This document shows, piece by piece, positions 14,214 through 28,969 of a DNA stretch of 64,000 bases (position 1 is the stretch's first letter; every line of letters starts with the position of its first letter). The notes beneath the pieces were generated by a model. It did no database searches. It was not told the origin of the DNA and was given only the letters and a program-made list of their open reading frames with translations. Source of the stretch: Bacteroidales bacterium (GTDB lineage Bacteria > Bacteroidota > Bacteroidia > Bacteroidales > Tenuifilaceae); the NCBI GenBank assembly GCA_016931855.1, contig JAFGDZ010000028.1, positions 1-64,000 on the forward strand. The letters are read 5' to 3'. The translations under genes and the position numbers were made by a program.

Positions 14214-14254
14214 ATAAAAAACTAGGGGTGCCTATGCATATAGACCCCCCTAGA
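14214..14254 (-). terminator. Terminator of the sigma/FecR/TonB peptidase operon
   Basis: On the minus strand CTAGGGG-rich arms (14221-14229 and 14244-14253) with an inner TATAG/CTATG pairing form a long stem followed by TTTTTT. It lies 22 bases after the last gene of the operon. Confidence 0.9.
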
Positions 14255-14275
14255 AACGAAACACTTGCAACTAAC

Positions 14276-14839
14276 CTATGCTGATTTACGGATAAACGGT
14301 ATATGAAGTTTTAAGCTACGTGGCTTATAGCTCTTTAGTCCTAATGCTTTTGCGTAGTACTTAAAGTGCCACAAAGCATGGAATATGGAAACAATAGCCA
14401 TTGCAATTCCAAACTCTACGTGTAGGTATAAAAACGAAGAGTACCAATCGCCTAAAATTTTATAGTTAATTTGCGCCACAAGCACCAACCCTAGTATACC
14501 CGAAACCAAGAAGGTAATAAGCAGCAGCACATTCCAAAGTTTATAATGAGTTGCTTTTGTTATAAAACCCAAACGCCTAAACAATGAGCTAACAATATAC
14601 AATGCCAAGGTAATGGCTGAGATAAGAATCAAACTGTAGGGTTTTGCCTTTGTTTTGGCAAGGATTTTGGCCTGATTAGCCGATAATCCGCCTATATCGC
14701 AAAAGCCATCACCGTTTTTATCAATAAATCGCCCGCACTTTCCGGTACAATCAACCTCATGTTTACCACACTCAACCTGTTTTGCGCAGAAAGCGGCAAG
14801 AGGTGCAATCAAAAGCATTAAAAACAAAACGTATTTCAT
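14276..14839 (-). CDS. Small membrane protein with Cys/Asp-rich N-domain, possible haem-binding helices
   Basis: A 187-residue protein. A signal peptide (about 1-18) precedes a short exported segment with five cysteines (within ECGKHEVDCTGKC...DGFCD) and an EF-hand-like loop DKNGDGFCD. Three transmembrane helices follow (about 68-88, 103-124, 140-162). Histidines in the last helices (HVEFG, FHALWHF) are placed as in DUF4405/cytochrome b561-like haem proteins. I do not recognise a named family. It starts 3 bases after the S46 peptidase stop and is the last gene before the terminator, so it belongs to that operon. Confidence 0.6.
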   Translation of the reverse strand: MKYVLFLMLLIAPLAAFCAKQVECGKHEVDCTGKCGRFIDKNGDGFCDIGGLSANQAKILAKTKAKPYSLILISAITLALYIVSSLFRRLGFITKATHYKLWNVLLLITFLVSGILGLVLVAQINYKILGDWYSSFLYLHVEFGIAMAIVSIFHALWHFKYYAKALGLKSYKPRSLKLHIPFIRKSA

Positions 14840-14842
14840 TAC

Positions 14843-17038
14843 TTACTTTTTATTTGGTACTAATTCGTTTAAAACATAGTTATTTGGAGCATACTTATCT
14901 AATGCCAAAAGAATATAGCGAATATCAACTGATACAGTTCTAGACAATTCTGGACTATATCTATAATCGGAAGCAACACCTTGCCAAATTCGATCGAAGT
15001 TTAGGCCAACAAGTTCACCTTTGCCATTAATAACTGGCGAGCCAGAATTACCGCTGGTTGTATGGCAACTTGTTAGGAAGTTGGTAACCATATCGCCATT
15101 TTTTGCAATATACAAGCCATAACTCTTGTTATGGTAGATATCGCGAAGCTTTTTGGGTAGGTAGAACTCCTCGTTATCGACGTTATTAACATACTTGTTA
15201 TAGGCACCTTCTAGGGTAGTAAAAGGGTAGTATTTAATACCATCTTCGGCATCGGTTCCCGAAACTTTACCATAGCTAATTCGCAACGAGTTATTTGCAT
15301 CGGGATATATAGCATTCCCCTTATTCATCTCAAGTAAACCCTCAACAAAGATAGCATTTAGATCCATCAACTTACTCTGCAAATCACCATGCCGTCTTGC
15401 TATTCTATCAATTTTAATTCTGTAGTACCCAATGGCAATTTGGTAAAGCTCATCGTCTTTAATAAGGCCTTTCACGTCGCGCTCTTCGCTCTCCAGAAAA
15501 GCCATAAGCTTATCTTTGCTGGTAAACATGGAGTTTTTAAACACCTCGCTGCTTAGCATTTCAATATCGCCATCGTACTTTTTAATGCAGGCAAGCAACT
15601 CCTCTGCAACAAACTTAGGTTCAAGTTTTTGGTAGTAACGGTAAGTTAGATTACGAAACATGCATCTATCCACCTCATAGCTCCAGTTGCGGAAGAACTG
15701 ATCGGTTAGCTTCACAAGTCTTTCCGCTTCGGCATTTGCGGCTTTTAGGTTAAGCTCTTTCCTATCGTACATTGCAACCAGCTTCTCAAACTTTCCAATA
15801 AAGGGAACAATCTCTGAGCCGTTAATACCTGCCTCCAAGAAGAAGGTATTAGCAAGATTATACACAGCAACCTCCTTGTAGTGCTCCTCCATTTGCTCAA
15901 GTATGTTGCCGTATTTTTGAATGCGCTTAGGATCTTTAGCAACCCACTCCTTAAAGAGCTGCTCCTCCTGTTGCTTCTTGGCAACTAGGTCCATTTGGTT
16001 TACCCCCATAATCTCGCCGCTCCAACGAAGGTAACTGTTCCCTACCGACGAAAGACGGGTGGTGTAACGAAACTTTGTATCAGGATTCTCCTCTATTGCT
16101 TTCTCAAGGATTTTCATCTTTTCGCGAGTAATAGCCACCTTCTCCGCAGTCTCGCTAAACACTATTTTGTCTAGTGCAAAAGAGGGGATGTACTGGCGAG
16201 TAGAGCCAGGGAAGCCCATTATCATCACAAAATCGTTCTCCTGAACGCCTTTTTTGGCAATGGGAAGAAAGTGTTTGGGCTTGTAAGGAACATTTTTTGC
16301 AGAGAAGTTTGCAGGGTTGTTTTCCTTGTTAGCATAAACCCTAAGCACAGCAAAATCAAGTGTTTGTCGTGGCCAGCGGTAGTTGTCGGTATTTCCACCA
16401 AATTTACCTAGGGAAAAAGGAGGAGCAGCAACCATTCTTACATCCTTATAAACCGCGTACACGTTCATAATGTACTGGCTGTTGCCAAACAGAGCCTGCA
16501 TACGCACCTCGTGCTTGGTTCCCTTAGTAGCCTCATCGGCAATTTTTTTACCGTTCTCATTTATCTTATTCTGGCGCTCGCGTCCGGTAAGCCCTTCGGT
16601 TCCCACAAGGATTCTATCGGTTACATCTTCCATTCTAACCAGCTGCTTAATTTGCAATCCCCGGCAAAGAGACTCCTCGCTACGGTTACTAGCCCAATAG
16701 CCGTACTTAATAAAATCGTTCTCAGGGGTAGAGAAGCGCTCAATATAGGAAAGAACTACATGGTAGTTGGTTATTAGCAACCCATCGGCAGAAACAAAAC
16801 TTGCAGTACCATAGCTCCTAAGATTGGAACCCTCGCCCATCAATCCAACAATAGCATCCTTAAGGCAAGCTTGGTTAACGCTGTATATCTCCTCTGCGCT
16901 TAGCTTTAAGCCCATTTTCCTCATCTCGGCATACTTCTCGTTCTTTAGTAGGAACGGAAGCCACATACCCTCATCGGCCATTGATACGTTAGGTAAAATC
17001 AAGAATATTGAAACGAATAAATAAAGAAGTCTTTTCAT
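14843..17038 (-). CDS. S46-family dipeptidyl-peptidase (DPP11/DPP7 type)
   Basis: A 731-residue periplasmic serine exopeptidase removing dipeptides from peptide N termini. After a signal peptide (1-21) come the trypsin-fold residues: H93 in LLITNYHVV, D228 in TLDFAVLRVYA and S665 in GNSGSPV, with a helical lid between about 310 and 560. The S1 residue position, G673 in DPP7 and R673 in DPP11, is R683 here (GLNFDRIW), which favours acidic (Asp/Glu) P1 residues. The histidine block is unusual: the family normally reads TNHHCGY, here TNYHVVL. It lies 26 bases after the metzincin gene and 3 bases before the membrane-protein gene. Confidence 0.85.
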   Translation of the reverse strand: MKRLLYLFVSIFLILPNVSMADEGMWLPFLLKNEKYAEMRKMGLKLSAEEIYSVNQACLKDAIVGLMGEGSNLRSYGTASFVSADGLLITNYHVVLSYIERFSTPENDFIKYGYWASNRSEESLCRGLQIKQLVRMEDVTDRILVGTEGLTGRERQNKINENGKKIADEATKGTKHEVRMQALFGNSQYIMNVYAVYKDVRMVAAPPFSLGKFGGNTDNYRWPRQTLDFAVLRVYANKENNPANFSAKNVPYKPKHFLPIAKKGVQENDFVMIMGFPGSTRQYIPSFALDKIVFSETAEKVAITREKMKILEKAIEENPDTKFRYTTRLSSVGNSYLRWSGEIMGVNQMDLVAKKQQEEQLFKEWVAKDPKRIQKYGNILEQMEEHYKEVAVYNLANTFFLEAGINGSEIVPFIGKFEKLVAMYDRKELNLKAANAEAERLVKLTDQFFRNWSYEVDRCMFRNLTYRYYQKLEPKFVAEELLACIKKYDGDIEMLSSEVFKNSMFTSKDKLMAFLESEERDVKGLIKDDELYQIAIGYYRIKIDRIARRHGDLQSKLMDLNAIFVEGLLEMNKGNAIYPDANNSLRISYGKVSGTDAEDGIKYYPFTTLEGAYNKYVNNVDNEEFYLPKKLRDIYHNKSYGLYIAKNGDMVTNFLTSCHTTSGNSGSPVINGKGELVGLNFDRIWQGVASDYRYSPELSRTVSVDIRYILLALDKYAPNNYVLNELVPNKK

Positions 17039-17064
17039 CTTAATACTGTTTATTTATGGTGCCT

Positions 17065-19344
17065 TTACAAAAGTGAAATCAGATACTGGTAGTGTAACCC
17101 ATTTTGGCCTCCCCGCTTAGCTAGCTTTTGCAGGCGTTGCTTTGTTTTTTGAAGCTGAGCATAGGCTGCGCTGGCCGTTACAGCATCGGCAGCTACCTTT
17201 GAAGCATCGTCGGGCGACGCAATTTTTGCAAGATTCTTTAGAGATAAGATGTAAACCACCTGAAGCCCTTTTTGGTATGGGGTGTTGGGTTTTGTATCTA
17301 GAATAAGCTCGTCCAAATCGTGCAGATACTCGGTAAGGGAGTAATCACTGTTAGGGTTAGCAGTGCTAGCAAATATTCTTGGTATAATTAAATTGCTTAG
17401 CAGCGCTTGTGTAACCTCAGCCTGACGCTTAAGAATATTGTCGGTTTGCGAACCAATTGCCGCTGTTAGCTTAACTTGGTCTAAATATGTGGGCGCATTA
17501 AATAGATGATTAACAGCAAAGCGTAGCGCCTCTTTTTGCTTCGCCTTATCCACTGGTATATAGCGCGTACGCTCCTGGTTTAGCGGACCATAAACGGTGT
17601 ACGTTCCTCCTAGGTACGACATGGATAGGGATATGTACCTATAGTACTGCTTAAGCAGCGCATCGTAGCGATCCTCAATATCCGAGGTTTTCCCCCCATA
17701 CTGTAGCGTCCACTCAACCAAATTGGTTAGAAGCACTTGCGTGTTCTCTATACCTCTGGCTGAAGACCTTAACACATCGTTGCCCAAGGATTCGGTTTGC
17801 GCCGAAGGATCTGGCGATATGGCCGAGGTAATAAAGGGCGAGAATAGGTACATGGGGTCATCTGACTTCGACTTAAGCAATGAGTCCAGAGCCGCAACCT
17901 CATCGGCAGGAGTTTTTGCATTGTGCAAATAGATGTAACCATACTCCACCGAAAGGAAGTCGAAGGCACCTAGCATTGGAGGGGTTAGCTTTACTCCGCG
18001 TTCCAAATCGCCTGGCTCGGCAATGTGGTTAAACCTTGCGTAGTCCATTATGGAAGCCGTTGTGCCATACTTTTGAGTAAACGATGGCGAACGTAGCGAA
18101 TCGGTAGGGTACGCGTAAGAGCTCTTTAGGTTGTGCTGCAATCCCAGTACGTGTCCAATTTCGTGGGCAATGGCGTACCTAATCATTTCGCCCATAAAAT
18201 CTGGCTCATACACCAAGGCTCTTGCCCGTGGATCAACAACCCCAGTTTGCATAAAGCGCCACTTGTTAATTAGCTCAACCACGTTATTCCACCAAAGCAC
18301 CTCGCCATTAATAATCTCGCCGCTTCTAGGATCTGTCCATATCTGCCCTGCGGCATTTGCTTCGTCAACAGGCAGATACCTAATAACGTTGGTTTTAATA
18401 TCGTAAGGATCGAAATTGGGATCGTTCTCTGGAAAATCCTTAGCAACAACCACGTTTTTAAATCCAATCTTTTCAAAAGCTTTGTTCCAAACCTCTATAC
18501 CCTGCTTTATGTAAGGTATCCAATCCTTTGGGAAGTAGGGTTCAACATAAAAAACTAGCTGCTTTTGTGGTTCAACCAGCTCGCCAGCCCTGTGTTTTGC
18601 CATATCGACAGGAGCAGGCTCAATTCTCCACCGTGAGATGTACTGATTGTTTGATATTGGCTTACCACTTGCAAATGCTTTCCGCTTGAAATTTTGATAA
18701 CCAACACGTTCATCGTCGAGCCTATACCTTAGAGGCTCTTTGGGTAGCTGCAGTAAAAAGTACTGAACGGTAATGGTAAAAGTCTCCTTTCCACCCAAGA
18801 ACTCATAGTAGGTTCTGATATTTACCCTATCGGTGTGCTGCTTAACAAATTGCAGCTCCGAGAGCTTGCTATCTAACTTCCCTTTCTTAACGTTATCGGG
18901 TAAGGGCCATGCAAGCTGAACCTCGTTGGAGAAATATTTAGTTGCGTCAATAATAGAAGCGCTATTGGCACTGTTTCTAGATTCGATATCGAAATACTCA
19001 ACACCACCCACCTTCATGTTTCTTACTAAAGGCTCCTTAATAGGATCATTACTATCAACGTCAACAAAGTTGTTGATCTCCTTAATTACGATTAGATTAT
19101 TGCGTTTGGCAAACCTAATAAGCACAGGTTCACTCCTCATTTGTCCTGCAGAGTAAACCTTTGCCGATGGAGCGCTGATATCAACAATGCGCGAGCCGAA
19201 TAGGATGTCTTGCCCCAGCAATGAATCTGGAATCTCAAATTTATACTTAGAACCGCTCTTGATAACCCTTATAAACGATCCCTGACTAAAAGTAGGAATA
19301 GCGGTAAGGGAAAGCAGTAGCAGCAATGCCAATCGTTTTAGCAT
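17065..19344 (-). CDS. Exported zinc metalloprotease of the metzincin type (DUF5117/DUF5118 family)
   Basis: A 759-residue secreted or surface protein with a signal peptide (1-20). The N-terminal half matches the DUF5118/DUF5117 Bacteroidetes architecture and the catalytic core has H394-E-I-G-H398-x5-H404 (HEIGHVLGLQH), the metzincin zinc site, and a Met-turn at SIMDYARF (M433). A lysine/alanine-rich helical region forms the C terminus. It would cut extracellular proteins and feed the neighbouring dipeptidyl-peptidase. A 111-base gap containing a perfect 16-bp hairpin separates it from the upstream lipoprotein gene, and 26 bases separate it from the S46 gene. Confidence 0.85.
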   Translation of the reverse strand: MLKRLALLLLLSLTAIPTFSQGSFIRVIKSGSKYKFEIPDSLLGQDILFGSRIVDISAPSAKVYSAGQMRSEPVLIRFAKRNNLIVIKEINNFVDVDSNDPIKEPLVRNMKVGGVEYFDIESRNSANSASIIDATKYFSNEVQLAWPLPDNVKKGKLDSKLSELQFVKQHTDRVNIRTYYEFLGGKETFTITVQYFLLQLPKEPLRYRLDDERVGYQNFKRKAFASGKPISNNQYISRWRIEPAPVDMAKHRAGELVEPQKQLVFYVEPYFPKDWIPYIKQGIEVWNKAFEKIGFKNVVVAKDFPENDPNFDPYDIKTNVIRYLPVDEANAAGQIWTDPRSGEIINGEVLWWNNVVELINKWRFMQTGVVDPRARALVYEPDFMGEMIRYAIAHEIGHVLGLQHNLKSSYAYPTDSLRSPSFTQKYGTTASIMDYARFNHIAEPGDLERGVKLTPPMLGAFDFLSVEYGYIYLHNAKTPADEVAALDSLLKSKSDDPMYLFSPFITSAISPDPSAQTESLGNDVLRSSARGIENTQVLLTNLVEWTLQYGGKTSDIEDRYDALLKQYYRYISLSMSYLGGTYTVYGPLNQERTRYIPVDKAKQKEALRFAVNHLFNAPTYLDQVKLTAAIGSQTDNILKRQAEVTQALLSNLIIPRIFASTANPNSDYSLTEYLHDLDELILDTKPNTPYQKGLQVVYILSLKNLAKIASPDDASKVAADAVTASAAYAQLQKTKQRLQKLAKRGGQNGLHYQYLISLL

Positions 19345-19372
19345 AGTAGTTATGAAATTATGATTAGTTTAA

Positions 19373-19443
19373 AATTAGGTAACAAGGCTCCTAGCAAAAC
19401 AACAAACCGAACAGATACAATTAAATGGCCTTGTTACCTAATT
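19373..19443 (-). other. Perfect 16-bp inverted repeat (long-loop hairpin) inside the operon
   Basis: AATTAGGTAACAAGGC (19373-19388) and its exact reverse complement (19428-19443) enclose a 39-base loop, between the Calx-beta-like lipoprotein gene and the metzincin gene. On the minus strand the second arm is followed by TTTTAAAC, a weak terminator-like run. It may be a partial terminator, a processing site setting different levels for the downstream peptidases, or a regulator site. Confidence 0.75.
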
Positions 19444-19455
19444 ATTTACGTAAGT

Positions 19456-20940
19456 TTAAAGGCGTGGGTAAAGCCTATAAGTGACCTTATAGAAATCGCC
19501 ATCCTTAACTACATCAAGACCTACAGGGAAGTTCTTCATAAAATAAGGAGAATTGCTCTTATACCATGCCTCGAAAATGATCTCTGGCTCAGCAAGGGTA
19601 AAGTCATAAGTACCCTCAAGCTTATCCAACCAAACCTCAACGGTATGGAAGGTAGCCACGGTGCTGTTAGCAAGAACACCATTGGTTGCCTTTGAGTCTA
19701 TATGCCAAGGTTTCTGTGTGTTTGCTCCAAGTTCCCAGTTATCTTTAAGTATAAGATTTGCTGTAAACTTTTGTCTTGGGGCTGTAACTGTACCTTTAGT
19801 TGCATCCTTACCATTTGCAACAAAACGAAGCAAACTATCAGATGGAGAGAAATACCTAGTGGCACGAGCAGCACCATAATCGGCAATAACGGTATCGGAA
19901 ACAAACCTTAACATATCAGCAAGCCTTAGCACATCACCGCCAACAGAATTAGCCAAACAGTCAAAAGCCGATATGAAACTCATGTTCCTAAAGGATTTAA
20001 GGTAATTCCCCTTATTGGGGTTAGCCGCAACGTTTAGGGCAATTTTACCATCCCACAAACGCTCAACATTACGTATTTGCTGATAAACCTGATATCCGTT
20101 TCCACCTTGTAGCGCAGGAACCACCAAGATTGAAGCAAAATCAACGGTAGGGTCACCTGCCTCTAGGGTAAGTGCTCCTGCAGTCTCAGATATTGCAACT
20201 TTTTTAGGGTCGGCAGGAACAAGTCTTAATGATATCTCCTTATTAAAACCAGCTTCGTCCTTTTTTAAAATGGTAAGCTCAACCTCATACGATGTAACAC
20301 CCTTTGGAAATGTAAATGATGATCCAGAGGCATTGTTTAAAAGAAAATCGGTTCCAAAAGCCATATCACCAGTAACCTCTAATGACAGTACCGCATCGTA
20401 AGCTAAAGCCTCACTAGACACTAGCTGCAACTTTATAGTCTCAGCATTATATGGGTTAGTGAATACGCTAGCTGTGCTACCAAAACCAATTTGAGGAAGT
20501 ATAATCTCCTTGGTTAGCTTAACGGTTATTTTATTGGTAAGCTGTGGGTTAATTGAATAATCGGTACCAGGAGCCAACAGAATAACAATGGTAAGCTCAG
20601 AATCCCAAATATTCTGGTTAAGAATGGTAATTGGAATAATGCCTTCGGTATCGCCCTTTTTAAGGGTAATTTCCTTTGAAGGAATGGTGTAGTGCTCATT
20701 CTCCACTGCTGTACCCGATACGCTAAGCTTAACGGGAATGTCCTTGTACGCTGCTGACGAAAGCTGAAGCTTTACATCGTAGGAACTATTGTCATCGGTA
20801 TTCACTGCTATTTGAGCCGTTTCAAAAGAAATTACAGGAGGGGTATTCTCCAATTCATCTTTTGTACATGAGTTGTTGAAAATCATTGCACCTATAGCAA
20901 CAAAGGCTATGGTCAATGATCGTCTAAGGGTAAAATTCAT
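19456..20940 (-). CDS. Lipoprotein with tandem Calx-beta-like domains
   Basis: A 494-residue surface or periplasmic lipoprotein; the signal sequence ends at C25 (IFNNSC). Two beta-sandwich repeats are evident at about 34-150 and 150-265 (VSGTAVENEHYTIPSKEITLKKGDTEGIIPITILN and FGTDFLLNNASGSSFTFPKGVTSYEVELTIL), the style of Calx-beta/DUF4843-like domains. The C-terminal half is a separate domain of unknown type. The gene begins 12 bases after the DUF6850 gene in the array and is therefore expected to act with the TonB receptor as an outer-surface binding partner. Confidence 0.65.
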   Translation of the reverse strand: MNFTLRRSLTIAFVAIGAMIFNNSCTKDELENTPPVISFETAQIAVNTDDNSSYDVKLQLSSAAYKDIPVKLSVSGTAVENEHYTIPSKEITLKKGDTEGIIPITILNQNIWDSELTIVILLAPGTDYSINPQLTNKITVKLTKEIILPQIGFGSTASVFTNPYNAETIKLQLVSSEALAYDAVLSLEVTGDMAFGTDFLLNNASGSSFTFPKGVTSYEVELTILKKDEAGFNKEISLRLVPADPKKVAISETAGALTLEAGDPTVDFASILVVPALQGGNGYQVYQQIRNVERLWDGKIALNVAANPNKGNYLKSFRNMSFISAFDCLANSVGGDVLRLADMLRFVSDTVIADYGAARATRYFSPSDSLLRFVANGKDATKGTVTAPRQKFTANLILKDNWELGANTQKPWHIDSKATNGVLANSTVATFHTVEVWLDKLEGTYDFTLAEPEIIFEAWYKSNSPYFMKNFPVGLDVVKDGDFYKVTYRLYPRL

Positions 20941-20952
20941 AGTTTTGGGGAA

Positions 20953-22539
20953 TTAAAGGGTTAGTAATCCTATGGCAAGTCCAAATACATGCCAGTTGTA
21001 TGAATTGCTAGCAAACATGTTTTCTCCGTAAATACGAGCGTAGCCTGTCATAGCACCTCTGCCGGCAAATACAAGGGGGAAGTTATAGGTAATAGCGCCC
21101 CCTACTTGAGCAGTACTGCGCTTGTAGTACTCCAAATCGGGAGTCAGAATAAGATCAGATACCTCGGATGTGTTAGCCAAATCCAGCTCTGCATCAAGGT
21201 TTATTCCCCCTTTTGCATAAGAGGAAATCTCAATAGAGTGAGAGCGCCGATCTAATAGTAAATAAGAGCCACTTATACCTGCACACGCAACACTTGCACT
21301 ATATGTTGATGTGGGTAAATAGTAAGTATTGCTAAACGATGAGTACGAAGCATCTATACCAAGACTCCACTTGGTTTCGTGCCCATTCTGTTTCAGCCCA
21401 TAAGTTTTCCAAGACAGATCCAAATTGTAGGTTTCAGTAACAAATCTATTCTTGTAGATATAATCAGTAACCCAATATTCAGAGGATGTGCCTGTAGCAG
21501 GATCAAGAATCGTAAACAATGACTGCCTATACTCATCGGCCGCACCATTGCTGTACTTTGCAGCTAAAACTGCGTTGTGAACAAAGCGGTTTGATTTAAT
21601 CAGTACGCTTGTTAATAAGTTATATCCAAAGGAGTTGAACGAACCTGGCGATTGTTTCTTCTCGCCAGCAGTTTCCTGCCATTGTAAATCTACACCCCCA
21701 GAAACAAGTACGTTTACCGCATCATTTGTATAGTTGTACTGAACTGCCGAGCCTATAAAATCACTTTCAAACTGTCGTCTAAACCCCTTGTAACCACCTA
21801 CATTGCTAGTAAAATTCTGAAGCCCCCAAAAGGTGTAGTACTTTAAGTTTGGGTCTGTTTGAACTGTTGTAATACTAGGCATTTTCTCTTTTTGAAACCT
21901 GTAGTATAAATTTGCTCCAAGCTTACTATTTGCTGATACTTTATAGGTAACAGATGGAACTATATTATAATCGAGCAGATACGTTCTGGTGCGTGGGTCA
22001 CGCTGCCTTGATACATCTAGAACTTCATAGTTTGATGATAAGCCATAGGTAAATCGACCTATTGTGTCGGTATATACCTTAAGGGTTAGCCCAATTTGCT
22101 GGCTATCGTAATCGCCCTTAACGCTGCTTCCCATTATGTAAGGATTCGAGTTGTTTGTATTTACAACATCGGACCAAGCTCTATTTTGCTCAATAAACTT
22201 GTTAAAATGGAAGCTCCCCCTTGCAAATAGCCTTTTGTTAAAGCTACGGTATCCCTCGGAGTAAAAGCGTATGCCATTAAGCCCATCGCCTTCCTGCGCC
22301 CTATGGTGGTTCCCTCCAGAGAAGTACTTCTCAAAGGTGGTAAAGCCACCCTTGTTCACATTGGCAAAGGCTAATCCCGCTGCATTGTCGGTATTAATCC
22401 AGTGCTGCATTACCACCTGAAGGTTTCGCTGGTTAATACTTGGAGTTATGGCTACCGAGTCAACTTTTTGCGAGTAAAGGGGCTGAGATAGAACTATAAA
22501 TGCAATAAGAGAAATAAACCTATTCATACTACTGCTCAA
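20953..22539 (-). CDS. DUF6850-family outer membrane beta-barrel protein
   Basis: A 528-residue protein with a signal peptide (about 1-24) and alternating aromatic/hydrophobic beta strands to the end, typical of an outer membrane barrel. The neighbourhood DUF4876-DUF6850 behind a TonB receptor fits the known Bacteroidetes arrangement. Function is not known. Its start overlaps the end of the DUF4876 gene by 11 bases, implying coupled translation, and the two products probably work together. The assignment to DUF6850 is by context and overall look. Confidence 0.65.
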   Translation of the reverse strand: MSSSMNRFISLIAFIVLSQPLYSQKVDSVAITPSINQRNLQVVMQHWINTDNAAGLAFANVNKGGFTTFEKYFSGGNHHRAQEGDGLNGIRFYSEGYRSFNKRLFARGSFHFNKFIEQNRAWSDVVNTNNSNPYIMGSSVKGDYDSQQIGLTLKVYTDTIGRFTYGLSSNYEVLDVSRQRDPRTRTYLLDYNIVPSVTYKVSANSKLGANLYYRFQKEKMPSITTVQTDPNLKYYTFWGLQNFTSNVGGYKGFRRQFESDFIGSAVQYNYTNDAVNVLVSGGVDLQWQETAGEKKQSPGSFNSFGYNLLTSVLIKSNRFVHNAVLAAKYSNGAADEYRQSLFTILDPATGTSSEYWVTDYIYKNRFVTETYNLDLSWKTYGLKQNGHETKWSLGIDASYSSFSNTYYLPTSTYSASVACAGISGSYLLLDRRSHSIEISSYAKGGINLDAELDLANTSEVSDLILTPDLEYYKRSTAQVGGAITYNFPLVFAGRGAMTGYARIYGENMFASNSYNWHVFGLAIGLLTL

Positions 22540-23764
22540 GATTTAAAAGGTTGGGGTTTTGGTAATCTCTAGGAGTTGGCCCATTAATCACCACAAAATC
22601 TTCGCTACTGTTGTTGGTATCCTGCAAGTAAACCCTATTGTTACCAAGTCTGCATACCTTACGCTCAACCGACTCGTTAACAAATCCTGTTGAAGCCGAA
22701 ATACACACAAAGCCAACATCAATAAAATTTTGAAGCCGTTTAAGCCCCATGTTTGAGCCACTTACTGCTTCATTCTTAAGCACCTCAATGCCATCTATAA
22801 CCGTACCAACGGGAACTTGCCTAAACCGTTCACTTGAAGAGCTTCCTGGAATGTTAACTTCTGGCCAACTCAGCACGTCCTGGTCGGTTTCAAAAAGGAA
22901 TACTCCGTTAGGTCCACCTGTTAGTAAATTAAAGTACTTTGTTGACGTTGATGTGGAGTACATGGGAAGGGAAAGAACATCGGGATTGCCCATTCCATCA
23001 TAATCCTTAACCTCAAAATCGGCATTGGATAAATCCACAGAGTTGGCTGCGCTAAGGGTATGATTTCTTGCGCTACGAGCTGCAATAACAATACTCTGCC
23101 CCGGATAAACAGGAAAATCGGTTCCGCTACCAGGAAATTTGCATATCTGCCTAGCATGAATATATTCAGGATTATCAATTGCTAAGAAAACAGCTGGGTT
23201 TCTAGACTCGGTTAGGGCTATGTACTTTCCATCTATATAAACAATTTCGTCGGAGTTGTTAAACACCTCTACAAACTGATCCGATGAGTAGCTCCTATTT
23301 AAATTATCCTTAGTTCCAGAATAGTAAATCTTAGAAATAACCAAGTCCTTTAGTACTAAACCCTCTAGAACAATGCTTAAATCTTCCGATGAGTATATAG
23401 GCGTGTTGGGTAAAGTACCTTTTACCAGCACTTTTGCTCTATCCTCCAAACTAATTGGTTCATCAAGTAACTCCTTGTACTGTGCACCAGTTAGCTCCCA
23501 GCATGTATTAATGGTATACACATCTGGGATTATATTCGGAATCTCAACAACACCCGCCTCGTTTGTACAACACGTATAGGTTACATTCTGGTTGGAGAGC
23601 ACAATCTCCCTGTTATTGTACTTTATATCTGGCTTAAAGTTTAAAGGAAGCACAGTAGCTATGCGAACATTTTTTATGCATTGGGGCTCCTCCCTGTCAC
23701 ATCCAAAAATTAGCAACAGAAGGGCTGCAAGAATGCTAGTTATTCCTATCCTTTTCATGCTCAA
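22529..23764 (-). CDS. DUF4876-family lipoprotein
   Basis: A 411-residue lipoprotein; lipobox LIFG-C22. The N-terminal part (about 30-130) is a carboxypeptidase-regulatory-like beta fold (FKPDIKYNNREIVLSN...VEIPNIIPDVYTI). The central LKDLVISKIYYSGTK...DQFVEVFNNSDEIVYIDGKYIALTES segment is characteristic of DUF4876 and resembles a lamin-tail-like beta-sandwich. No enzymatic motif is seen. It is the gene immediately downstream of the TonB receptor (6-base gap) and could be its extracellular lid or ligand-binding partner. Confidence 0.75.
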   Translation of the reverse strand: MSMKRIGITSILAALLLLIFGCDREEPQCIKNVRIATVLPLNFKPDIKYNNREIVLSNQNVTYTCCTNEAGVVEIPNIIPDVYTINTCWELTGAQYKELLDEPISLEDRAKVLVKGTLPNTPIYSSEDLSIVLEGLVLKDLVISKIYYSGTKDNLNRSYSSDQFVEVFNNSDEIVYIDGKYIALTESRNPAVFLAIDNPEYIHARQICKFPGSGTDFPVYPGQSIVIAARSARNHTLSAANSVDLSNADFEVKDYDGMGNPDVLSLPMYSTSTSTKYFNLLTGGPNGVFLFETDQDVLSWPEVNIPGSSSSERFRQVPVGTVIDGIEVLKNEAVSGSNMGLKRLQNFIDVGFVCISASTGFVNESVERKVCRLGNNRVYLQDTNNSSEDFVVINGPTPRDYQNPNLLNLEQ

Positions 23765-23770
23765 AACAGG

Positions 23771-26700
23771 TTATATTTTAACTGAAAATTCCATTCCAAA
23801 AGCAAAAGTGTTGGCATTCCGCTCTATTGGAGTACTGGACACATTTGATGTTTGCAGTGGCGTGTAGAAAAAAAGATTACTGGTATAGAACGAAAGCCGC
23901 ATATTCTTGGCAATGTCCTTTGTAAGCCTTGCGCTAATAAGCCAAACAGGGGGCATTGTAGTGGGACGTGTCTCCTTTGGATCAAGAATCTGATCTGATA
24001 GCAATATGTCCTTTATCCTGTAGTTAGGATCGGCTAACATCTCCTCCGTTATCTTATGGTAGCTTAAATCGGTATCGAGCCAACCAATGGGTACCTTTCT
24101 TTGGTTTGTTGATACGCTGTATGTGTACCAAATTACCTGTGCGTTTAGCGAAGCCACCATTCGCATTTGCGGTATGCTGTAAACGGCTCTTAGCACACTG
24201 CTAAACCTACGCTGTATGCTCTTTTGCAATCCGCTAGGATACTCCAACTTAAAGGGAGGGGTGTTTGGGGCACCCTGACCGTAAACCGATGATGGGGGTA
24301 TTCCAATAGGACTTTTGTAGTTTGGTCCTGTAGTCCACGATTTGGACTCCATGTATGCCCCACTTAAGTAAAACTGAGTCCGAAGGCTCTTTACCTGACC
24401 CAAGTAAAATTCAAACTCTAATCCCCTATCGTTGCTTGCTTGGGTATTACCCGTCAAACCTGAAGAGGTAAACACTGTATCAACTCTGGCCGGATTACTC
24501 CAATCTATAACTGGCTTTGAGTCAGGAATAACAATTATACCATTGCCTACAGTATAGAAATTGGAGTAGTAGATTTGGGGCTGAGAATAACTTCCAAAGC
24601 CGCCCTTCATTCTATCGTTATAAGCAACAACAGAAAAGGTCATACCATTGGGCAACTTGATGTCAAAACCTAACTCCGACTTAGTATTTGTGGTATTATC
24701 AAGGCTTTTATTGCGAAGAATAGTGTTAATATATGTGTGATAAACTACCAACTGCTGACTGGGATTAGAGTGCAGATACTGTGCAACCAACCTATCTGAG
24801 TAATTTGGCTCTGGGTAAAGATGAGAAAGCCCTGGAGTTTTTGAGTTCTGCCCCCAACCGCCCCTAAGCTCTAGCCACTTATTCACTTTAAACGAGGCGT
24901 TTAACCTTGGCGATAGCGACGAAACCTGCTCAGCAAGTCCCGGCTGTTGCATTCCATATCGTACCCCCGCTTGCAATCGGAACTGCCTATTCTCAGAAAA
25001 ATCAACAGTTACGTTATCCTCAAAGTATGCCGAGAGCTGATTAAGCTGTGGAATATTGTAGTATGGTCTTGGGCGCCCGTTGCTATTGGGTCTAATTGGC
25101 ATAGCATCGTTGTTGTTGTAAAAGCCACGCGCATTATTTTGATCCAGCTTATACTCAACCCCCATATTGAAACGCTGCCTAAACTTTTTAAAGTTTAAGT
25201 AGAAACCGTTTCCCACCTTGGCAAAAATAGAAAAGGGCTCTGACTCGGTTCCACCAGAAGCTCTGTATGAAGAACTTAAATAGGGAACCTCAGCATAACC
25301 ACTAGTAAGGGATGTAATAATAGGAAGTCCTCCATCGGCTGATACAGTGGTTGAAGAGGTAGACTCGTTAAGAGATTGGCTTACACCAAACGAGTAGGAA
25401 AGAGTTCTCATTAGTAACTTATTTACGCTAACCTTACCATTATGGCTAAAACGTAGTGTTAGCGATTTTTGATTAACTTCTGTTCCCTCGATGATAGCAT
25501 CGGGGTCATCCCCTTTAAAATCCAAAAGGTTACTAACGTTTATCTTTGTATTTGTGTACCAAATCTTTTTAATGGTTTTGGTATAGGTAACACCACCCGT
25601 TATGCGGTCGAATGATGATGTCTTTTGGCGAGGATCACCCCACGACTGGGCGTAGTCGATATTAGCATTCAGACTACCCCTGCGCCCCTTAAGCTTCCAT
25701 CCCTTGCTAAGTGATGTGTTAAACGTTTCGGGGTTAATCTTGGCTCTTATCTCTAATGGAGAATAGCCCGCTTTGGTGTTAACAATAACAGCACCCGAGG
25801 CTAAATCGCCATACTCGGCAGAGGGGATTCCTCTTATCACCTCTATGGATTCAATATTATCGGCACCAATCTCACGTAAATCAACACCAGTACCTCCTGT
25901 TGATGTAGCGCCAATTTTACCGTTAAGCGATGCATTATCGGAAATAGGCACACCATCAACAACAACAGAAGTTCCAAATGCGTTATTTTCACTATCGGTA
26001 TTCAGCGTCCTTATGGTAACCTTTTCCGATGAGGTTAAGTTGGCTGCACCAGTCATAAGCTGCCCAGGAATTAGCTGCATTACATCCATTAAGCTGGTAG
26101 CCTGAAGGTGATCCATCGCTTGCCTCCCTATGGTTGAACTGGTTGATGTTCCCGCTGCACTAGCTCTAGCAACAACAGTTATCTCCTCCAAAGCAAGTGA
26201 TGTTTCGGTTAGCTTAATATCTATCTCCATATCGCCAGAAACAACTATGGTTTGCGAGTAAGGCTCGTAGCCAAGCATCTGAGTCTCCAACTTTGCTTTA
26301 CCAGTAGGAATATTCTGGAGCGTGGCATAGCCCTTTTCATCATATACAGTAGCATAGGACTCATAGGCCTTTATCATTACCACTGCACCAATAAGGGGAT
26401 CTTTTGATGATTTATCGGTTATTTTTACCTTAAGTTCGTACCCCTTAGGCTTTGCTGTGGGTTGCGGTTGCTTGGGCTTGGGTTGTGGAACCTTTATTAA
26501 AAGGATTACCCTATCGCTTATTTCAAAGGTATAACCGGAATTCTCCAGTACCTTTTTCAGCACAACGCTCACATCAACATTGCTACCCGTGTAGCTAATG
26601 CCCTTAATCTCTTTTATTTTATCATCCTTGAAAAGGTAGCCCAAGCCTGTTTGGCTCTTTATTTGAACCAAACACTCCTCTATTGATGCATTCTCTAATT

Positions 26701-26797
26701 TTATTGACTTTATAGTTTGCGATTTAACTACAAAAGAGAACGATGAAAAGCCTAAAACTAAAGACAATAAAAACAAATACCTGCAAAGCCTCTTCAT
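23771..26797 (-). CDS. TonB-dependent receptor with N-terminal signalling (STN) domain
   Basis: A 1008-residue outer membrane receptor. After a signal peptide (1-27) come an STN/secretin domain (about 30-105: IEECLVQIKSQTGLGYLFKDDKIKEI), a proline-rich linker (PQPKPKQPQPTAKP), a carboxypeptidase-regulatory domain (about 120-205), the plug (about 215-330, with VVDGVPISDNASLNG and IESIEVIRGIPSAEYGDLASG) and a 22-strand barrel. The STN domain is the part that touches FecR in cell-surface signalling. The gene follows fecR by 10 bases, so the receptor is both gatekeeper and sensor of the unit. The transported ligand cannot be read from the sequence; the operon suggests a peptide. Confidence 0.9.
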   Translation of the reverse strand: MKRLCRYLFLLSLVLGFSSFSFVVKSQTIKSIKLENASIEECLVQIKSQTGLGYLFKDDKIKEIKGISYTGSNVDVSVVLKKVLENSGYTFEISDRVILLIKVPQPKPKQPQPTAKPKGYELKVKITDKSSKDPLIGAVVMIKAYESYATVYDEKGYATLQNIPTGKAKLETQMLGYEPYSQTIVVSGDMEIDIKLTETSLALEEITVVARASAAGTSTSSTIGRQAMDHLQATSLMDVMQLIPGQLMTGAANLTSSEKVTIRTLNTDSENNAFGTSVVVDGVPISDNASLNGKIGATSTGGTGVDLREIGADNIESIEVIRGIPSAEYGDLASGAVIVNTKAGYSPLEIRAKINPETFNTSLSKGWKLKGRRGSLNANIDYAQSWGDPRQKTSSFDRITGGVTYTKTIKKIWYTNTKINVSNLLDFKGDDPDAIIEGTEVNQKSLTLRFSHNGKVSVNKLLMRTLSYSFGVSQSLNESTSSTTVSADGGLPIITSLTSGYAEVPYLSSSYRASGGTESEPFSIFAKVGNGFYLNFKKFRQRFNMGVEYKLDQNNARGFYNNNDAMPIRPNSNGRPRPYYNIPQLNQLSAYFEDNVTVDFSENRQFRLQAGVRYGMQQPGLAEQVSSLSPRLNASFKVNKWLELRGGWGQNSKTPGLSHLYPEPNYSDRLVAQYLHSNPSQQLVVYHTYINTILRNKSLDNTTNTKSELGFDIKLPNGMTFSVVAYNDRMKGGFGSYSQPQIYYSNFYTVGNGIIVIPDSKPVIDWSNPARVDTVFTSSGLTGNTQASNDRGLEFEFYLGQVKSLRTQFYLSGAYMESKSWTTGPNYKSPIGIPPSSVYGQGAPNTPPFKLEYPSGLQKSIQRRFSSVLRAVYSIPQMRMVASLNAQVIWYTYSVSTNQRKVPIGWLDTDLSYHKITEEMLADPNYRIKDILLSDQILDPKETRPTTMPPVWLISARLTKDIAKNMRLSFYTSNLFFYTPLQTSNVSSTPIERNANTFAFGMEFSVKI

Positions 26798-26807
26798 ATA
26801 GAAACAA

Positions 26808-27944
26808 TTACGATTTTTTACTTACAATAACAACGTTATCCTCAACCCTAAACTGAACCGACGAAACCTTTGAAAACATGTTCAGTATTACGCTCAGGTT
26901 CTCATTTAATGGTATAACTCCGGTAAACGTAGAATCTTTAAGGTCTTCATCTTCAAAAACAAACTGCACATCGTACCTCCTTTTTAGCTGAAGAACGATT
27001 TCGTTTAGCGGCGTTCCGTTTAGCTTAATGGAGCTGTTTATCCACGATGTGTATAGCTCGGTATCCACCCGTTCTATAGCAACCGTTTTGTCTTCGCGGT
27101 TAAACCTAAACTGTTCACCTGGGGCAATCACCTTTTCCTCGGCAAAACCAGATGGAATTGAGATTGATCCCGAAACAAGGGTTGTAGCAACCACATTTTC
27201 ATCCTTGTAGGACTTAACGTTAAACTTGGTTCCTAGTACCCGAATGGAGTAATCGGCAGTTTTCACAATAAATGGACGGGACTTATCCTTAACCACATCA
27301 AAAAACGCCTCGCCCTCTACAATCACCTCTCGCTGATTGCTTGCAAACTCAACCGGGTAGCGAATGGAACTCTCGGCATTTACCCACACCTTTGTTCCGT
27401 CGCTTAAAACCAAGGAGAACGATTTTCCCTTAGGTATTATCAGCTCATGGTATTGCAGCTCATCTATTCCACCCTTTTGGGGGCGATTTCCCGATGATAC
27501 TGCCTCATTACCTTTGGCCAAATAGGATATCTCCTTTCCCTCTACGTCCAGATTAGCCCCTTCTAGTTTACCTTGCTGATTTTGTGCCTGTTCCAAAGCA
27601 ACCGTCTCTCCCGATGGCAACTTTATTGTTACAGTACCCTCCGCAGGGTAAATGTTGGCGGCTATCTGCTCCTGAGCGTTATCATTAAATTCAAAGAGCG
27701 TAAAGAATGCTATTACTACTGCTGCAGCAACCGACGATGCCTTAAGTATTAACCCCCTATTTGCCCTGAGCATAAACTTCATCCATGCTCTATCTACACG
27801 TAACCCTTTAAGGTATTTATGCCTTTGGGCATAGTCCTGCATTAGCGTATCATCTAATGCTTGGTCCTCTGCAGAGAGGATAGTACGGCTCAACTCTTCG
27901 GCCTCCTTGATGGCTCGCTCGAATAGCTCTTTATTCTTATTCAT
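26808..27944 (-). CDS. FecR-family anti-sigma factor
   Basis: A 378-residue inner-membrane regulator. The cytoplasmic N terminus (1-65) is followed by one transmembrane helix (about 68-86) and a periplasmic FecR domain (about 125-260; FSLVLSDGTKVWVNAESSIRYPVEF, VEGEAFFDVVKDKSRPFIVKT, RVLGTKFNVKSY), with the DUF4974 module at the C terminus (LNEIVLQLKRRYDVQFVFEDEDLKDSTFTGVI). DUF4974 resembles the STN domain. It sits 10 bases before the TonB receptor and 215 bases after the sigma gene, where an ECF-type promoter is seen. Confidence 0.93.
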   Translation of the reverse strand: MNKNKELFERAIKEAEELSRTILSAEDQALDDTLMQDYAQRHKYLKGLRVDRAWMKFMLRANRGLILKASSVAAAVVIAFFTLFEFNDNAQEQIAANIYPAEGTVTIKLPSGETVALEQAQNQQGKLEGANLDVEGKEISYLAKGNEAVSSGNRPQKGGIDELQYHELIIPKGKSFSLVLSDGTKVWVNAESSIRYPVEFASNQREVIVEGEAFFDVVKDKSRPFIVKTADYSIRVLGTKFNVKSYKDENVVATTLVSGSISIPSGFAEEKVIAPGEQFRFNREDKTVAIERVDTELYTSWINSSIKLNGTPLNEIVLQLKRRYDVQFVFEDEDLKDSTFTGVIPLNENLSVILNMFSKVSSVQFRVEDNVVIVSKKS

Positions 27945-27964
27945 GTTAACAACGTTGTATTATA

Positions 27965-27995
27965 AAAACGACTTGGTAGTAAAAACGGGTGACAA
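27965..27995 (-). promoter_or_regulatory. Putative ECF-sigma promoter of the fecR operon
   Basis: Reading the minus strand, GTCACCC (27993-27987) is followed after 14 bases by GTCG (27972-27969), about 25 bases before the fecR start codon. The GTCACCC...GTC pattern with a poly-A/T lead-in is what I recall for FecR-associated ECF promoters in Bacteroidetes. It would let the adjacent sigma factor drive the whole downstream operon. Confidence 0.55.
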
Positions 27996-28159
27996 GTTTT
28001 TTAAACTTTTTTAAGAAAAAGTAACATTAAATACAAATACAAGTGCATGTAATTGATTTACAGCACTGTAAAAACGTAATGTTTTTAACAGTATCGTTCT
28101 CAAAATAACTTTACGGTAGGTCAATTAGGGGCGGGTGTATTGCAAACTCATATTAAACC

Positions 28160-28690
28160 TTACACAACAAGCTTAATAAGTAGTAATAGGTACGCACAGT
28201 TTTCCTTCAAAAACTTGTATGCTCTTTGTTTAAGGGTTTTCACTGTATTAACAGAGATGTTTAGCTCATCGGCAACCTCTTTTACCGACATGCCCTTTAA
28301 CGAAAGCATAAGTACATCCCTTGTCTTGGCGGGGAGCTTTTCTATTGCCTCATCAAGAAGTCGGAAGGCCTCCTCCCTTACAACGGAGTTCACCTCCTGC
28401 TCTATGGGCTCAAAGGGGATTGTTTCTAGGTAGATAGGATTGCGTTTTTTCAAAACGTCTAAAGCCTTATTCCTTACGGTTAAGTATAAGTAGGCTCTAA
28501 AAGAGACTGTGTTTGGAAAGGAGGGTTTCTTTTCCCATATACCAATAAAAGCATCCTGAACCACATCTTCAGCATCATGCTTATTCTTTAGAATTTTAAA
28601 AGCAAAATGATGCAGTGATGGGTAATACTCAGTAAAGATTTCTCTAAAGCTGAGCCTCTTCTCTCCTATCGATATATAGCTCCCGAACAA
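28160..28690 (-). CDS. FecI-like ECF RNA polymerase sigma factor
   Basis: A 176-residue sigma factor: region 2 about 14-80 (FREIFTEYYPSLHHFAFKILKNKHDAEDVVQDAFIGIWEKK, then FRAYLYLTVRNKALDVL) and region 4 about 113-170 (EKLPAKTRDVLMLSLKGMSVKEVADELNISVNTVKTL). It heads the 14.4-kb minus-strand gene array and is the cognate factor for the FecR at 26808-27944. No clear TAnnTTTG promoter precedes it; TACTTTG near 28765 is one base short of consensus. Confidence 0.92.
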   Translation of the reverse strand: MFGSYISIGEKRLSFREIFTEYYPSLHHFAFKILKNKHDAEDVVQDAFIGIWEKKPSFPNTVSFRAYLYLTVRNKALDVLKKRNPIYLETIPFEPIEQEVNSVVREEAFRLLDEAIEKLPAKTRDVLMLSLKGMSVKEVADELNISVNTVKTLKQRAYKFLKENCAYLLLLIKLVV

Positions 28691-28913: not shown

Positions 28914-28946
28914 AAAAAAAGCACAGCGCCCTTTTGGGGCGCTGTA
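28914..28946 (-). terminator. Terminator after glnN
   Basis: On the minus strand CAGCGCCC pairs with GGGCGCTG around CAAAA and is followed by TTTTTTT. Confidence 0.92.
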
Positions 28947-28969
28947 CAGCTGCGAGAATGTTAGAAAAA

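Follow-up and report, generated by a model that had tools for sequence, protein, structure and literature searches.

A receptor–peptidase gene array in a Tenuifilaceae genome as a candidate import-and-digest system for protein or peptide cargo

Composition of the array

The array analysed here consists of nine genes on the minus strand (14276–28690) of a window of 64,000 nucleotides, i.e. positions 1 to 64,000 of contig JAFGDZ010000028.1 from a Bacteroidales bacterium of the Tenuifilaceae (assembly GCA_016931855.1). In the 5' to 3' direction it encodes an extracytoplasmic function (ECF) sigma factor, a FecR regulator, a TonB-dependent receptor with an STN domain, a DUF4876 lipoprotein, a DUF6850 protein, a Calx-beta lipoprotein, a metzincin, an S46 peptidase and a small membrane protein, followed by a terminator. 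The original prediction had given this order, and all nine genes and their domains were confirmed. The gaps are 215 bases between sigma and fecR, 10 between fecR and the receptor gene, 12 between receptor and DUF4876, 12 between DUF6850 and Calx-beta, 111 between Calx-beta and metzincin, 26 between metzincin and S46, and 3 between S46 and the small membrane protein. The predicted tight packing is thus borne out by the gaps; the single overlap, of the DUF4876 and DUF6850 genes, holds only if DUF6850 starts at the TTG at 22539; with the ATG at 22527 the two genes are 1 base apart. The strong terminator predicted at the end of the array (intrinsic; 14216–14253, minus strand) is real and consists of a hairpin (14222–14253) and a T run, with z = −4.2 relative to shuffled sequences. 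The gene upstream of the array ends in a terminator of its own (28921–28947).

The sigma factor (28160–28690; TTG start provisional) matched Pfam Sigma70_r2/r4_2 and TIGR02985 (137.6 bits, cut-off 126.4), and the FecR anti-sigma regulator (26808–27944) matched PF04773 and PF16344. A Pfam scan of the receptor (23771–26797) gave STN, CarboxypepD_reg, plug and barrel; the STN domain, which had been claimed beforehand, scored 30.8 bits against a cut-off of 28.4. Sigma factor, FecR and STN-bearing receptor stand in tandem and in the order of FecIRA-type surface signalling and, judging from this arrangement, a FecIR-type switch is present; the array differs from such systems in that the switch is coupled to peptidases. 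A shared ECF promoter motif (TGTCACC...CGT) was considered and dropped: it was found upstream of 1 of 20 fecR genes, the window's own, and of none of 32 sigma genes. In the genome-wide pattern search the spacer exceeded that of the window's own site by one base.

The DUF4876 protein (22529–23758) matched PF16215 with 83.0 bits (cut-off 27.9). Its lipobox reads LIFGC-DREE, with C20 invariant in 46 aligned sequences. Acidic residues behind the lipobox cysteine typically mark surface lipoproteins in this phylum, and the protein is predicted to be surface-exposed. The AlphaFold2 model (predicted local distance difference test, pLDDT, 82.5) found BT_1938 (4q1z) as the best solved match, an entry titled only as a DUF4876 protein. 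No match to the window DUF4876 was found among viral contigs. The DUF6850 protein (20953–22527) matched PF21012 with 215.8 bits (cut-off 27), and its AlphaFold2 model (pLDDT 91.1) has 18 long strands by hand count. The model matched general outer-membrane channels, porins and receptors, the best by VIA-align being CymA (Z 19.5, 285 residues, root mean square deviation 4.5); therefore DUF6850 is, on the strength of the model, an outer-membrane barrel, for which a role as accessory channel may be inferred. The window DUF6850 had no match in genome_contigs. When solved structures were searched with the receptor sequence (E 0.01), enterobactin, PQQ and YncD receptors were listed and FusA was not among the matches.

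Both peptidases have plain signal peptides, as read by eye. The metzincin (DUF5117/DUF4953; 17065–19344), predicted to be periplasmic, matched PF16313 with 290.8 bits, and its HExxHxxGxxH motif and Met-turn are intact (HEIGHVLGLQH and SIMD). The S46 peptidase (14843–17038) matched PF10459 with 655.1 bits and scored below the Dpp7 equivalog cut-off (507.8 versus 1200); its best solved relatives are Asp/Glu-specific dipeptidyl-peptidases (DPPs). Alignment to 5jxf and 4xzy showed that it keeps the histidine in TNYH, the serine in NSGSPV and the arginine in NFDR; valine replaces the cysteine that adjoins the histidine in the two solved enzymes. The histidine and serine are the catalytic residues of the family, and the arginine in the S1 pocket is characteristic of the acidic-specific DPP11 type. 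By its catalytic histidine and serine and this arginine, the window enzyme is predicted to be of the DPP11 type. Neither DUF5117 nor DUF6850 was found mentioned in the literature searched, in which DUF4876 appeared in three papers and DUF4857 and BT1938 together in a single one.

The receptor–peptidase unit in other genomes

Co-conservation across relatives, a check set out in the original prediction, was found for the core of the array. Genes for receptor, DUF4876, DUF6850, metzincin and S46 stand in this order in G626 (locus L290) and G768 (L292), which belong to another, distant family and where stops separate the metzincin and S46 genes and a gene for a leucine-rich-repeat protein comes after S46. 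A third genome of that genus, G503, carries a metzincin::S46 fusion of 1226 amino acids with both active-site motifs, encoded 2 bases after a DUF4876 gene (L106); its receptor–DUF4876–DUF6850 triad is on a different contig, at the end (L105). In two genomes of one further genus, G694 and G586, the order is SusC, SusD, Calx-beta, metzincin, S46 and an FMN/Fer4_5 protein (domains scanned for G694). A SusD-like lipoprotein, present in G694, was absent from the window array in the Pfam scan.

In the distant versions with receptor and DUF4876 (G626 and G768) the sigma factor, FecR, STN domain, Calx-beta and small membrane protein were not found, and Calx-beta recurs only in the version with SusC and SusD. 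No sigma or FecR gene was labelled near either complete distant copy in the stretches read (the G768 contig spans 12.7 kb), and control by substrate therefore looks like a local addition to the unit. The receptors of L290 and L292 are the nearest relatives of the window receptor among the loci compared (45%), with an alignment that starts only at residue 115, behind STN.

A search of 393 genomes of the order with the fusion protein, in which at most two candidates were scored per genome, returned G503, G626 and G768 and then the S46 proteins of the window, G694 and G586 (381–369 bits), the next of the matches listed having 253 bits; the pair is present in at least six genomes. There was no match in G706, the fourth genome of the G503 genus, and the S46 and DUF4953 scans revealed no adjacent metzincin and S46 in G486, which belongs to the genus of G694 and G586. 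The end of the contig adjoining the fusion gene holds an array like those of clustered regularly interspaced short palindromic repeats (L106:6540–7028; 36-base repeat, by eye).

In a phylogenetic tree of 52 rows all six S46 proteins of the cassettes group in a single clade, with a Shimodaira–Hasegawa-like approximate likelihood-ratio (SH-aLRT) support of 100. The six cassette metzincins likewise group together (SH-aLRT 87) in a tree of 30 rows, from which five shorter copies of these genes had been removed. The window DUF4876 clusters with L105, L106, L290 and L292 (SH-aLRT 99, 150 rows), and the window receptor and DUF6850 are nearest to those same loci. L005 and L113 also encode S46 proteins beside DUF4876, and these fall outside the cassette clade (row L156 was not resolved), so that S46 was probably recruited beside a DUF4876 receptor more than once.

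S46 was found in 28 and DUF4953 in 18 of the 34 DUF4876-bearing genomes of the order. Within 10 kb of DUF4876 lay 7 of 56 S46 genes in 27 genomes, against 0.53 expected (P = 1.5e-6), and 4 against 0.44 expected when the window's own genome was left out (P = 0.001). These counts were made by hand with random placement as the expectation; a weak match in G415, fragments and genomes lacking S46 were left out. Of the seven genes, two are not in an operon-like position: in G486 the gene lies on the other strand, and in G575 an opposite gene intervenes. Overall, these comparisons support the view that the receptor genes are one evolutionary unit with the metzincin and S46 genes.

Proposed function and alternatives

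The wider family was surveyed in three sets: 40 regions selected from those in which DUF6850 exceeded the cut-off in 395 genomes of the phylum; 37 regions around DUF4876 in 198 genomes of the order; and 79 named loci from genome_contigs, drawn from the top 80 of at least 456, chosen by two conserved motifs and non-random. With L290 and L292 there were 161 loci, of which 146 remained after removal of five without a labelled DUF4876 reading frame and 10 recognised repeats. Gene calls were longest open frames, and their labels, assigned with profiles made for this survey, are approximate. The triad lies on one same-strand run in 136 of the 146 loci and, by record title, was found in Bacteroidota, Balneolota, Chlorobi-type and Gemmatimonadota genomes. 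Partners on the same run were a HEAT-repeat protein (35 loci), M16 (10), S46 (6), metzincin (3), the metzincin::S46 fusion (1), M28 (1), a di-haem peroxidase (8), a family termed c5 (39), an ABC gene with DUF4857 (31) and Fer4_5 or PepSY (31). Any peptidase class, counting HEAT, was present in 48 runs and, by hand count, in 16 without HEAT. The window's own genome has two further triad loci: L004, which has ABC, DUF4857 and PepSY genes with the triad, and L005 (2–9224), in which a protein with a type IX secretion tail and a Fer4_5 protein are encoded between DUF6850 and two S46 genes.

Several DUF4876 loci respond to iron. According to the parts of PMC10434189 available, iron starvation induced PG1019-22 of P. 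gingivalis 20.8–214.5-fold, and BT3625-33 and BT1933-39 of B. thetaiotaomicron 38.1–128.1-fold and 3.5–7.4-fold, the last including a HEAT protein; in those parts no cargo was named. PG_1019 and PG_1020 appear in a transcriptome table of strain FLL361 (PMC10101095, in extract), and a DUF4876 gene appears in a table of haemin-dependent expression (PMC10470040, likewise in extract). The iron induction, together with the redox, DUF4857/ABC and di-haem peroxidase genes of related loci, argues for a cargo that bears a metal or cofactor, at least in these relatives. The three iron-induced loci share receptor and DUF4876 with the array, and the available parts of the source name neither metzincin nor S46 there; own locus L004 resembles BT3625-33.

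A protease-associated TonB import system in Bacteroidota was not found by title in the literature search. The nearest parallels elsewhere are Fus and YddB/PqqL, in which a TonB-dependent receptor likewise has an adjoining gene for a dedicated, predicted periplasmic protease (PMC6793856, in extract). In that survey, which covers Proteobacteria, Fus-like clusters carry M16 or another protease, and several that lack FusC have a cytochrome c peroxidase; the wider DUF4876 family similarly carries a protease or, elsewhere, a di-haem peroxidase. The array differs from Fus in its unrelated proteases (none of the nine genes has an M16 domain), its DUF4876 and DUF6850 partners, its FecIR control and the lack of a TonB-like FusB gene among the nine. 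The best reading by analogy is that the array would be a protease-associated import system working like Fus. It also resembles the RagAB/SusCD importers (RagAB being a SusCD pair) in combining a receptor with a surface lipoprotein and S46 DPPs that cut peptides; a related cassette follows SusCD in G694 and G586, and the array has DUF4876 and DUF6850 in place of SusD.

Because the five core genes recur in the same order in a distant family, we favour, with somewhat more confidence than doubt, a self-contained system that imports and digests protein or peptide cargo, possibly iron-bearing. The receptor, with DUF4876 as surface-binding lipoprotein and DUF6850 as accessory channel, would capture the cargo and, with TonB energy, bring it across the outer membrane. 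Once in the periplasm, the cargo would be cut internally by the metzincin, and the DPP11-like S46 enzyme would remove dipeptides, probably after acidic residues, as the families and the conserved catalytic residues suggest. Following the FecIR paradigm, STN, FecR and sigma factor would raise expression while the receptor works. The peptide-sensing, peptide-degrading and peptide-uptake unit of the original prediction is retained in so far as the genes form an evolutionary unit, the anatomy fits import with periplasmic digestion and the switch is present; a nutritional peptide is only one candidate substrate.

Nutritional peptides and an iron-bearing protein are about equally likely as cargo, and either one, taken as the whole function, is a special case of import-and-digest. 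RagAB-like uptake of nutritional oligopeptides only, with no metal, would have the receptor set in the role of SusCD and the peptidases trimming what is imported to dipeptides for food. It would agree with the same cassette following SusC/SusD in G694 and G586, and with the nine array genes showing no ABC, DUF4857, PepSY or Fer4 domain at E 0.01 in the Pfam scan. S46 DPPs are periplasmic, release dipeptides from N-termini and supply P. gingivalis with them, and RagAB imports oligopeptides (PMC8048996, as far as its accessible text goes). Since other DUF4876 loci are iron-starvation genes, and Fer4_5 or PepSY genes and ABC with DUF4857 each stand on 31 of the 146 DUF4876 runs, we consider this restriction to peptides rather unlikely. 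Uptake of metal or haem, with the peptidases processing an iron-bearing protein, would make the array a Bacteroidota counterpart of Fus; this reading draws on the induction of the three DUF4876 loci and on the parallel with Fus clusters, protease and peroxidase never occurring together on a run (0/146, a weak observation with only 8 peroxidase loci). The induction comes from other organisms and other DUF4876 subtypes, at loci for which the consulted portion of PMC10434189 names no S46 or metzincin gene, and we would not expect this to be the whole explanation either.

Two readings dispense with digestion of an imported cargo. If the receptor took up a small iron or vitamin chelate and the peptidases were unrelated housekeeping enzymes on a shared transcript, the lack of a recognised peptidase in most DUF4876 loci would be explained, and genes for S46 and metzincins also occur commonly in other parts of these genomes; yet the two enzymes form a distinct clade, travel together and with this receptor subtype, and make up a single fused protein in one genome, which renders this reading improbable. 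Envelope remodelling or quality control, with peptidases maturing or clearing surface lipoproteins under a stress sigma factor, could appeal to the predicted surface lipoproteins and ECF sigma factor within one array. It appears very improbable, since S46 enzymes release N-terminal dipeptides (PMC8048996, in its accessible text) and a cassette beside two unrelated importer types fits import better.

Several observations weigh against an import-and-digest system. No recognised peptidase lies on the same-strand run in 98 of the 146 loci, even counting HEAT, and the exact nine-gene set occurs in no other genome compared. In 26 other genomes of the same family the window DUF6850 had no match. All trees were short searches without bootstrap, and the support of 87 for the metzincin clade is modest. 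The periplasmic location of both peptidases is inferred from the signal peptides read by eye. Finally, a long-looped inverted repeat of 16 bp lies in the 111-base gap before the metzincin gene (19373–19443, minus strand; z = −2.7, 3 of 200 shuffles as stable), possibly an attenuator or partial terminator, and such a hairpin could separate peptidase transcription from that of the receptor.

A broader and more doubtful proposal is that receptor, DUF4876 and DUF6850 form a platform for protein import that evolved independently and uses interchangeable accessory enzymes to remove iron or haem from the proteins taken up (C25-like HEAT protein, M16, S46, metzincin, di-haem peroxidase), the window representing a metzincin–S46 subtype with its own surface-signalling switch. 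A DUF4876 subtype inherited with two peptidases, which one genome has as a fusion, suggests a concrete hypothesis for the family, protein or peptide import with processing.

Further genes of the array and of DUF4876 loci

The HEAT-repeat proteins near DUF6850 (L172:12817–15003 and 34 other loci) have an N-terminal domain with a GDP motif and an invariant histidine and cysteine (20 of 20 aligned). A motif pattern, written after viewing both families, matched 25 of 45 HEAT proteins, 16 of 23 C25 peptidases and none of 2094 other open reading frames; a stricter form matched 20, 5 and 0, respectively. These proteins are probably C25-like by sequence. A stronger assignment as proven C25 peptidases was rejected: of 20 members compared with Pfam C25, one matched (E 0.0038), a profile comparison with C25 gave E 0.0031, hardly better than unrelated controls (best 0.0044), and matches to solved structures ran through the HEAT repeats, with no gingipain listed. 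M16 was likewise discarded as a strong general partner; among the matches listed, 34 genomes had 1–11 M16 matches each, and several of those near DUF4876 lie on the other strand. In L041 (3954–10817) tandem DUF4876 genes behind DUF6850 are followed by an M16 peptidase gene.

The Calx-beta lipoprotein of the array (19456–20940; PF03160) has the lipobox sequence NSC-TKDE and is predicted to be surface-exposed; relatives among the open reading frames of the loci compared were found only in L286 and L288. The small membrane protein (14276–14839) contains a Cys-rich loop, DKNGDGFCD, and, by eye, some three membrane helices; no Pfam family matched. A role as ferredoxin-like partner was dismissed, the Cys motif (strict pattern) being absent from the other scanned reading frames, Fer4_5 proteins included. 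Homologues occur in 26 of 198 genomes of the order, the window genome included, and in the 12 of 20 loci that were read their neighbours differ from those in the window. In L298, L305, L306, L308 and L313 the homologue is fused to what we take to be a spermidine-synthase-like protein, beside a presumably MEMO1-like gene, both names being given by resemblance.

Family c5, of about 300 amino acids and lipoprotein-like by eye, is encoded beside the triad (L116:12724 onward, L120:12807 onward and 37 more) and has the conserved sequence YGYLFGYPDYAVDFFV; the two members scanned had no Pfam match. Arthrospiribacter ruber carries three apparently identical triad regions on three scaffolds (L160, L161 and L162).

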